Below are positions 45,072 through 47,873 of a DNA stretch of 64,000 nucleotides, one piece after another. The stretch spans positions 124,001 through 188,000 of the forward strand of contig JADLFI010000003.1 in NCBI GenBank assembly GCA_020845635.1, written 5' to 3'. Within the stretch, counting starts at the first letter, position 1. Every line of letters begins with the position of its first letter. The DNA is from Bacteroidia bacterium. GTDB lineage: Bacteria; Bacteroidota; Bacteroidia; UBA4408. The notes below the pieces were generated by a model, which had not been told where the DNA came from, did not search any database, and saw only the letters and a program-made list of their open reading frames with translations. Made by a program: the position numbers and the translations under genes.

Positions 45072-46817
45072 TTACATTTTTATCAGTTTTTTTACTGATT
45101 TCTCGTTACCTGTTTGTAGTTTTAAAATGTAAATTCCTGCTTGTAGATTCAACTCTTTAGTATCAATATATATCATATTACTTCCTTTAAATACACGATA
45201 CGCAGAAACGCTCACAATCAGTTTTCCGGTAATATCAAACAACTCAACCTCTAACACTGATTCTTGAGAAAGGAAAATATCAATATTGATATCATCAGTA
45301 AATGGGTTGGGGTAAATAATGTTATTGAAAAACCCAAAGTACTCATCATCACACAAATCAACATCGAAAAGAGCCATGCGCGATTGACTACACAAAGTAT
45401 TTTTCATACTTTGGTCAAGTATCCATTGAGCGCCTTCCTTGTTATAGGAATTAATTGCCCGTTTTGTAACTCCATTAGGAATTGAATAATGCATTAAATC
45501 TTGTGTATCTATGGTGTGCCCCAACTGATGTGCATGGCCCAGTTCGTGCAAGACTACCGATTGAAAATCCAATTTATTGTAAGCGATAGGTTCCTCTCCA
45601 AAATGCCATTTATTACTTTTTCTAAATAATAAATCTTGTTCTTCAACATACCAGCTTGTTTCGCTGCATCCGGAATAATAGCTGTAACACAAGCCCAAAA
45701 CACCTACGGGTAAAGTATTGTCTTCATCATAACTGATAACATTTACTGAATCGCGTTGTGTTTTATTAATTTGGGTTTTATTGCCAATAGTCCAGTTGAT
45801 AAAGGTTGTGCAGCGCCATTTCTTAAACGAAACAAGAAAATCATTATAGGCTATTGAATCTGTAAAAAAGTTATCGTTCAAATGCCATATATAACCTTTG
45901 TTACTATCGCGGCCTACCATGTTTGCCGGATTGGTTTGGTAGGTATTTCCAATGTTAACAATGGCATAATTTACTTGCAGCAATTTATTGCTTACTGCTC
46001 GTTGGCCATTTATAACTACTGCAATTTTCCCTGTTCCGGCCATGGCAGGCACAACAACCTCAATTTTAGTATCAGACCAAAAAGTATATTGTGTAGCAAA
46101 AGCTTCAATTTCAGTATTTCCACCATCATTGGAGTTACTAAACAACACTTTGCTCGAATTTTGATTGTTTCCAAACCCATAACCATTAATGGTTAACTTT
46201 GCCCCTACCCCGGCCTCTACACTTAAAGGAGAAAAGCCGGCAATAGTTGCCTGCCGAGAGTTTTCATTATGGTTTGAAAAATGAATATTTTTATAGGATT
46301 TTATTTTACTTAATCCATAATTGCTTTGTAAGGTATCAAAAAAACTATTGGCAGTGAATTTATTGAAAACATCAGAAACTTCCCCACTTGCTGTGTTATA
46401 GGCATAAAAACCTTGGGTAGATGCATACACATCAAATAATGGAAAAGTTACCGGAATAGTTTGTGAAGTATAATCGTTCAAAAAAAACATACCCGTTTGA
46501 CCCTTGTGTAAGGATAATAATGAGGAGGCAGTTTCTTTACGGTTTTGCCACACTCCACCGGCTGTAACAATATGTATAATAGAGGGCATGTTTCCTTTAT
46601 ATACACTATAAACCTCCACCGTATTGATAGTATAAATTCTATTAATAGTTGAGGCTATTGTTGATTGTTGCTCCACTACCTTACCTTCTACAATATATTT
46701 ACTGTTGACCACTTTATTGTTAAATTGCACCGGATATAATGCACACTGTGCGCTAAGTTTGGTATTTAAACCTAAGGCTAGTAATAAAAATAATATAACT
46801 ACAAAACGTTTACTCAT
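45072..46817 (-). CDS. Secreted zinc metalloprotease with TIG and T9SS sorting domains
   Basis: A 581-residue exported protein: signal peptide 1-23, an N-terminal region, an IPT/TIG Ig-like domain about 190-290 (IAGFSPLSVEAGVGAKLTI, GYGFG), a zincin catalytic domain about 300-465, and a T9SS type A sorting domain about 505-581 (YPNPFTDDINIDI, LFDITGKLIVS, QAGIYILKL). The zinc motif is HELGHAHQLGH with H424, E425, H428 and H434. This fits HExxHxxxxxH, but the glycine normally at the eighth place (HExxHxxGxxH) is Q431, which is unusual for matrixin-type enzymes. The DLMHYSIP segment downstream supplies the expected Met-turn methionine. A TAnnTTTG box lies 51 nt upstream. Confidence 0.85.
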   Translation of the reverse strand: MSKRFVVILFLLLALGLNTKLSAQCALYPVQFNNKVVNSKYIVEGKVVEQQSTIASTINRIYTINTVEVYSVYKGNMPSIIHIVTAGGVWQNRKETASSLLSLHKGQTGMFFLNDYTSQTIPVTFPLFDVYASTQGFYAYNTASGEVSDVFNKFTANSFFDTLQSNYGLSKIKSYKNIHFSNHNENSRQATIAGFSPLSVEAGVGAKLTINGYGFGNNQNSSKVLFSNSNDGGNTEIEAFATQYTFWSDTKIEVVVPAMAGTGKIAVVINGQRAVSNKLLQVNYAIVNIGNTYQTNPANMVGRDSNKGYIWHLNDNFFTDSIAYNDFLVSFKKWRCTTFINWTIGNKTQINKTQRDSVNVISYDEDNTLPVGVLGLCYSYYSGCSETSWYVEEQDLLFRKSNKWHFGEEPIAYNKLDFQSVVLHELGHAHQLGHTIDTQDLMHYSIPNGVTKRAINSYNKEGAQWILDQSMKNTLCSQSRMALFDVDLCDDEYFGFFNNIIYPNPFTDDINIDIFLSQESVLEVELFDITGKLIVSVSAYRVFKGSNMIYIDTKELNLQAGIYILKLQTGNEKSVKKLIKM

Positions 46818-46868
46818 TAATATTAAATGGTATCAAGTATAGTTGCCGGACAATAAATAATAATGCAA

Positions 46869-46876
46869 CAAAGATA
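46869..46876 (-). promoter_or_regulatory. -7 box upstream of the metalloprotease
   Basis: Minus-strand TATCTTTG, exact TAnnTTTG, 51 nt before the ATG at 46817. No -33 element at the normal distance. Confidence 0.4.
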
Positions 46877-47054
46877 TTAAACTTAAAATTTAATTTTGTT
46901 TAAACTACATATTTTGCCTTTAAACCATTTCTGATTTATATACCCAACAATTTTATGTAACCAACAATAAGACTCTTTGTTTGAAACAATAATTATGCTA
47001 AGGTTTTATAAATAATATTGTATTTTTAGGAAAAAGCCCTACATTAGCAGTTTA

Positions 47055-47062
47055 TAATTTTG
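47055..47062 (+). promoter_or_regulatory. Possible -7 box of the acyltransferase gene
   Basis: TAATTTTG matches TAnnTTTG. If used, transcription starts near 47066, well ahead of the first ATG at 47226, leaving room for the coding extension. No TTG 18-21 nt upstream. Confidence 0.35.
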
Positions 47063-47225
47063 TTTAGCCATAGCCTCATCACTAAAAAATACTTCAATAA
47101 AATTCCGCCTTTTTAAGCGTGATTCCTTTGGGCATATTATTCCCTTAAAGCGGTTACTTATTTCATTAATAGGTGCAGCTACCTATCCCAGGTTAAATTG
47201 GATTAACAAGACCAGAATAACCGGT

Positions 47226-47873
47226 ATGTCGCATTTAAAAGGTTTACCCGAAAGGAAGGTTCTTTTTGTGAGTAACCATCAAACATATTTTGCAGATGTT
47301 ATTACTTTAGTACATATTTTTTGTAGTAATAAGTGGAAATTTAATGACAAAATTTCTAACCCTATTTACCTATTAAACCCTAAAGTAAATACCTATTTTG
47401 TAGCTGCTGAAGAAACGATGAAAAATGGTTTATTGCCAAAAATATTTGCTTATGCAGGCTCTGTGTCTATTAAAAGAACATGGCGTGCTAATGGGCAGGA
47501 AGTAAACAGAAAAGTTGACTTTAATGATATTGGTAATATTGGCGAGGCTCTTGACAATGGTTGGGTTATTACCTTTCCGCAAGGAACCACCAAAGCTTTT
47601 GCACCGGGTCGTAGAGGAACAGCCCACATTATAAAAAAATTTAAACCCTTAGTTGTTCCGGTAACAATTAATGGCTTTAGACGTGCTTTTGATAAAAAGG
47701 GATTAAAACTTAAGAAAAGAGGTGTTACCTTAGATATAAGATTTAAAGCACCCCTGGAGTTGAGTTATGAGGAAGAACCTGATGAATTGTTGCAAATTAT
47801 TATGCGCTCAATTGAACAATCTGATGAGTATAAGTATCCGTTTTACAATAATGACGATACTTTAGAAAAGTAA
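47226..47873 (+). CDS. PlsC-like 1-acyl-glycerol-3-phosphate acyltransferase (5' end disturbed)
   Basis: Acyltransferase of phospholipid synthesis, adding a second acyl chain to lysophosphatidate. The called 215 residues contain the catalytic motif NHQTYFAD (17-24) and the substrate motif FPQGTT, the Bacteroidota version of FPEGTR. The ATG used leaves only 16 residues before the catalytic His; normally about 50-60 precede it. Upstream the same frame is open from 47058 and gives convincing protein, but with no standard start. A second frame covers 47060-47113 and ends KYFNKIPPF; removing one T from the T5 run at 47110-47114 would fuse the two frames. So the gene is either frameshifted here, uses an unusual start, or has a sequencing error. 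Confidence 0.82.
   Translation: MSHLKGLPERKVLFVSNHQTYFADVITLVHIFCSNKWKFNDKISNPIYLLNPKVNTYFVAAEETMKNGLLPKIFAYAGSVSIKRTWRANGQEVNRKVDFNDIGNIGEALDNGWVITFPQGTTKAFAPGRRGTAHIIKKFKPLVVPVTINGFRRAFDKKGLKLKKRGVTLDIRFKAPLELSYEEEPDELLQIIMRSIEQSDEYKYPFYNNDDTLEK

Follow-up and report, generated by a model that had tools for sequence, protein, structure and literature searches.

Near-cognate start codons and the acyltransferase locus

Initiation at near-cognate codons has been described in Staphylococcus aureus, where passages of one report (PMC13009471) give AUA as the start codon of infC, ccpN and citZ and AUU as that of cvfC1. According to the same passages, output from AUA/AUU was about 10% of that from AUG in poor medium for the three starts tested, and in rich medium ccpN reached as much as 30%; these sites carry extended Shine-Dalgarno motifs (PMC13009471). 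For Flavobacterium johnsoniae, parts of a second report (PMC6847099) describe initiation as favoured by A at -3 and -6 and Shine-Dalgarno sequences as lacking. Here we describe a PlsC-like membrane-lipid acyltransferase gene, located in the 64,000-nucleotide stretch of Bacteroidia DNA that was analysed (the window), that is a probable additional case of a known rarity. In our judgement the gene probably consists of one unbroken frame with a near-cognate start, which would most likely be the AUA at 47097.

The called ATG at 47226 and the open frame upstream

An ORF of 215 residues is opened by the ATG at 47226 on the plus strand and ends at 47873. Frame 0 of this ATG stays open in the 5′ direction as far as a TAA at 47055, with ATG, GTG and TTG all absent, and the open stretch of the acyltransferase reaches about 40 codons 5′ of the first ordinary start codon. 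The initial annotation had described family-like protein without ATG or GTG in this frame, which our analysis bears out and extends to TTG, and it had assigned RDSFGHIIPLKRLL and PRLNWINKTRI to the frame of the called ATG, where the frame read-out also places them. It was right, too, that a protein begun at this ATG is too short ahead of the catalytic His, although its count of 16 residues has to be corrected to 17, the His being residue 18 (MSHLKGLPERKVLFVSN-H).

Homologues were taken from the best 80 of 581 relatives and from a genome search that matched 13 genomes (one of them the window's own) out of 60. After exclusion of the weakest genome match (L018 in G059, 31% identity), start codons were counted at 92 loci, including the window; L010 and L019 look like one gene present twice. 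The interval examined, 34 to 55 codons 5′ of the 47226 equivalent, is wide, so that chance may account for part of its GTG and TTG codons. Within it, these loci from the best 80 of 581 relatives and the genome matches have ATG in 81 cases, GTG without ATG in four, TTG only in six and no canonical start in one, which is the window. When homologue N-termini were read back in frame, many fell at the equivalent of 47103, and others lay within a few codons of it in either direction. The position 47103..47105 (plus strand) holds the start ATG of many relatives, for example in the same-family genomes G004 and G007. Family N-termini such as MRLFSKDIFGH and MGLFKRNPFGH are fitted by the window reading MKFRLFKRDSFGH. 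The family alignment comprised 28 proteins hand-picked for diversity. Loci whose start interval offers GTG or TTG but no ATG include L021, L022, L032, L054, L071, L072, L017 and L025 (Algoriella, Empedobacter, Weeksella, Vaginella, Blattabacterium and others). As such intervals occur in several lineages, the start codon of this gene seems to change often.

We consider it very improbable that the short protein from the ATG at 47226 is the real product. This is the first canonical start in frame, and G003, a genome of the same genus, also has ATG there, but G001, another genome of the genus, has ACA at the equivalent codon, and the codons upstream are constrained. Homologues starting at the 47226 equivalent were looked for, and all 91 of the other loci (from the best 80 of 581 relatives and the genome matches) have a canonical start 34-55 codons further upstream. 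Modelled with AlphaFold2 on a 28-row alignment (mean pLDDT 88.9), the reading from 47097 shows a helix (residues 15-36) and a strand (residues 38-42) ahead of the called Met, which is residue 44, so that a protein begun at 47226 would be predicted to miss both. A call from this ATG would drop about 43 residues in all. On the family alignment, the ATG at 47226 is a methionine internal to a conserved protein.

Coding constraint in genomes of the same genus

We compared four genomes of the genus and eight of the order, the window's own included. The acyltransferase gene is present in two of the three other genus genomes (G001 and G003), and the remaining one (G002) gave no match to it. From about 47100 on, the window, G001 and G003 align without an indel (MAFFT). 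The conserved N-terminal stretch that the called ATG omits (47103..47225, plus strand; 41 codons) contains the family N-terminus and the predicted helix and strand. Over this stretch, identity at the first, second and third codon positions was 0.71/0.80/0.44 against G001 and 0.73/0.83/0.39 against G003, and over the gene body it was 0.82/0.91/0.48 and 0.78/0.91/0.52, respectively. Judged by codon position, the pattern over 47103-47225 is that of translated sequence and indicates coding constraint, and we are highly confident that the N-terminal extension is genuine and lies in frame. Decay, one of the explanations offered in the initial annotation, was not seen in the codon differences, and the gene body has no loss of constraint.

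Coding conservation was not seen 5′ of 47103 between the window and G003, where the 15 codons of 47058-47102 gave identities of 0.40/0.47/0.40, with 12 of the 15 differing and none of them silently. A DNA search with 46880-47240 gave only one clear match outside the window, in G001 (E 8.6e-5) and from 47113 on; the leader is thus confirmed by no relative. The viral contigs searched contained no relative. Three of the eight order genomes (G002, G005 and G006) have no match to the gene even though they are 93-97% complete, and the acyltransferase gene may for this reason be dispensable.

The reading frame across the T5 run

The initial annotation had proposed either a 5′ frameshift or a non-standard start. 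The latter agrees with our results; the former does not, as G001 and G003 read this region in frame 0 without an indel. Specifically, it had suggested that deletion of one T in the T5 run (47110..47114, plus strand) would join the acyltransferase frame to a second frame, and this second frame does end in KYFNKIPPF as it had stated, its stop being the TAA that starts at 47114. Joining of the two frames, whether because a single base was inserted into the T5 run or by slippage or +1 frameshifting there, is in our view improbable. The UUU-UAA at the site would permit P-site tRNA-Phe to re-pair one base on, and residues resembling the shifted ones precede KKD in Flexithrix (L097, TIPLLKKD) and Raineya (L020, KLPFIKKD). 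Furthermore, the ATT that G003 has in frame 0 at the family start position has a counterpart in the window one base off, at 47102, where it falls in the second frame. However, G001 and G003 hold frame 0 through the site, and ATG and GTG are absent from the second frame, whose sole canonical start is a TTG at 47060, so that the start problem would persist after removal of a T. A run of five T is also short for transcript slippage.

The "LF" before KRD that is common in relatives is read in frame 0. The frame 0 residues fit the relatives better than the shifted ones (RLFKR, 9.95 bits, versus PPFKR, 7.93 bits), although this is a weak test, based on the 61 of 88 loci that have a clear D/N-x-F/L-G motif (28 distinct; window excluded). 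For this test and for the motif count given below, L010, L013 and L014 were excluded because they match on the other strand, leaving 89 loci. A sequencing indel is unlikely, since in the sampled parts of the assembly none of 66 orthologous proteins of at least 150 residues was frameshifted, in a screen that requires a second fragment with E 1e-6 and 45% identity and so would overlook shifts within the final few dozen residues of a gene. A frameshift at the T5 run was not supported, as G001 and G003 lack an indel, the second frame lacks both ATG and GTG, and none of the 66 orthologues tested is frameshifted.

In programmed +1 frameshifting of the prfB type, a stop follows a codon at which the tRNA in the P site could move one base on and pair again, and in this respect the locus is similar. 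It differs in that the upstream frame has no start except a TTG and in that two same-genus relatives have no shift; a shift site with an overlapping frame, which relatives would keep if the shift were programmed, was not found in G001 or G003. The case illustrates that an absent ATG need not imply a frameshift.

A putative AUA start at 47097

A near-cognate start is inferred because the coding stretch has no ATG, GTG or TTG. At or 5′ of the family start position, the open frame has two near-cognate codons, ATA 47070 and ATA 47097 (47097..47099, plus strand). The second stands two codons 5′ of that position, and we lean towards AUA 47097 as the start. The initiator tRNA would read this codon to give M-K-F-R-L-F-K-R-D..., the product would begin about 40 codons 5′ of the called ATG, as it does in relatives, and the AUA would hold protein output low. 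The proposed full coding sequence would then span 47097..47873 (plus strand, frame 0; 258 residues plus stop), as suggested by the open frame, the family alignment and the AlphaFold2 model, with the called ATG (47226..47228) at residue 44. The upstream ATA 47070 is also a possible start; it lies within 47058-47102, the stretch in which most codons differ from those of G003.

ATA 47097 is unconserved, being AGT in G001 and AAG in G003, and the same rare codon in relatives, as would mark a conserved AUA/AUU start, was accordingly not found in these two genomes. Within 46950-47226, GGAG, GAGG and AAGGA are all absent and there is one AGGA, at 47028, which does not amount to a strong Shine-Dalgarno sequence. 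ATA 47097 has A at -6 and T at -3; the favoured A at both -3 and -6 precedes TTC 47103 instead.

The window and G001 carry TTC at the family start position, where G003 carries ATT, and two codons past it G001 and G003 have TTG and the window has CTT. Neither G001 nor G003 has ATG or GTG in the open frame 5′ of the 47226 equivalent. As the G001 contig starts 24 bases before the KRD Lys codon, a start further up is possible there. The TTG two codons after the family start would be usable in both, and they have therefore no need of a rare codon. A tentative possibility is that in this genus the gene has moved away from ATG to weak starts (AUA in the window and TTG, perhaps AUU, in the relatives), so that an enzyme of lipid synthesis is made from a near-cognate codon without a Shine-Dalgarno sequence.

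The main rival to a start at AUA 47097 is that the start codon was recently lost or that a base is wrong, the full-length protein being made poorly in the case of a mutation and normally in the case of an error. We regard this as rather unlikely. It would agree with the position of the window as the only one of the 92 loci (from the best 80 of 581 relatives and the genome matches) that lacks a canonical start and with the absence of the proposed AUA from G001 and G003. A loss could moreover be tolerated, given that the window's genome has four other PF01553 matches and that three of the eight order genomes have no match to the gene. Set against this, G003, an independent genome, is also without ATG or GTG and has TTG only, as does G001 within the limits of its contig; the gene body has no relaxed constraint; and no frameshifts were found in the sampled assembly, in a screen that is blind to substitutions.

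The rarity of such a gene was assessed in a survey of 464 kb of the window's genome against 740 kb of G003. Of 79 reciprocal pairs, nine were dropped (ORF more than half overlapped by a longer ORF), leaving 70. On the side of the window's genome, the first ATG, GTG or TTG lies at least 12 residues inside the aligned part in one of the 70 pairs, which is the acyltransferase gene (36 residues; the next largest value was 10). One pair bears the same mark on the G003 side, and it is not the acyltransferase gene; it is a C17 minus-strand gene whose partner is a minus-strand ORF on C3 of G000 (78947-80504, reverse-strand coordinates), and its first ATG, GTG or TTG lies 16 residues inside. Genes with no ATG until at least 12 residues into the alignment numbered 7 of 70 in the window's genome and 10 of 70 in G003. 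Non-ATG starts are thus ordinary in this survey, so that the TTG of the relatives is unremarkable and the exception is the window, with no canonical start at all.

Leader and neighbourhood

No Rfam family matched 46700-47400 at its gathering score, and an RNA element in the leader was therefore rejected. No sigma-70-type promoter was found in 46800-47300. The sequence TAATTTTG at 47055..47062 (plus strand) fits the Bacteroidota -7 promoter consensus; this motif occurs 77 times in the window versus 105 expected, and, being no commoner than chance, it proves nothing about a promoter. Two terminator-like hairpins were found on the minus strand, at 47225-47211 and 47119-47106 within the N-terminal coding stretch, where 0.1 were expected from shuffles. 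The product of the divergent neighbour (45072-46817, minus strand) is predicted to be secreted and combines a matrixin-like peptidase domain and a TIG domain with a type IX secretion sorting tail.

Protein family and predicted fold

The protein matches the PF01553 acyltransferase (PlsC-like) family with 39.3 bits, above the Pfam cut-off of 23, and scores 20.6 bits against TIGR00530 (1-acylglycerol-3-phosphate O-acyltransferase), below the NCBIfam cut-off of 102.95. The usual PlsC motifs are HX4D and FPEGTRS. HX4D, with four residues from the catalytic His to the Asp, was not found; the protein has NHQTYFAD (47274-47297), with five residues between them, as do 88 of the 89 proteins counted, the window included, the remaining one having E for D. 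FPQGTT (47574-47591) replaces FPEGTRS in 28 of the 28 aligned proteins. Acyltransferases with NHQTYFAD and FPQGTT may form a subfamily with its own substrate. A sequence-profile search of the PDB gave no match at E 0.001. The best solved structural match of the model was Thermotoga maritima PlsC (5kym_A; Foldseek E 5e-7, 234 columns, TM 0.50/0.53), in keeping with a PlsC fold. The two proteins are alike in overall fold but differ in sequence (17% identity) and in the NHQTYFAD and FPQGTT motifs of the acyltransferase.

Comparison with known near-cognate starts

A possible precedent was sought in infC, the gene for IF3. Among six infC loci of the family, those of G000, G003, G004 and G001 (L169-L172) were read and that of G006 (L174) was read for TTG; L173 was left out. 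In G001, G003 and G004, infC has no ATG, GTG or TTG before its conserved part, and ATA GCA ACA is common to all three near its beginning, where infC seems to start at AUA. G000 has ATT ACA ACT at the matching place and a TTG two codons earlier, and L174 has a TTG as well. Because of these TTG codons, and because the starts were read from sequence, infC is not a clean precedent. Upstream of infC, GGAGG is present in G000 and G004, AGGA alone in G001 and no motif of this kind in G003. The acyltransferase gene differs from infC in that its ATA is unshared even within the genus, whereas the infC codon is common to two genera. It resembles infC in that its conserved part is preceded by no canonical start and that a near-cognate codon stands close to its N-terminus; in G003 and G001, infC likewise lacks an upstream GGAGG.

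As to infC, ccpN, cvfC1 and citZ of S. aureus, the passages of the report describe extended Shine-Dalgarno motifs as well as conservation of the rare codon in ccpN and cvfC1 (PMC13009471), neither of which was seen in the acyltransferase gene. The likeness lies in output, which a near-cognate start lowers in S. aureus according to those passages and which we propose, on sequence grounds, that it would also lower here. If the acyltransferase gene is translated from AUA, it would provide a natural test of how a weak start codon is located in Bacteroidota, a phylum without Shine-Dalgarno sequences.
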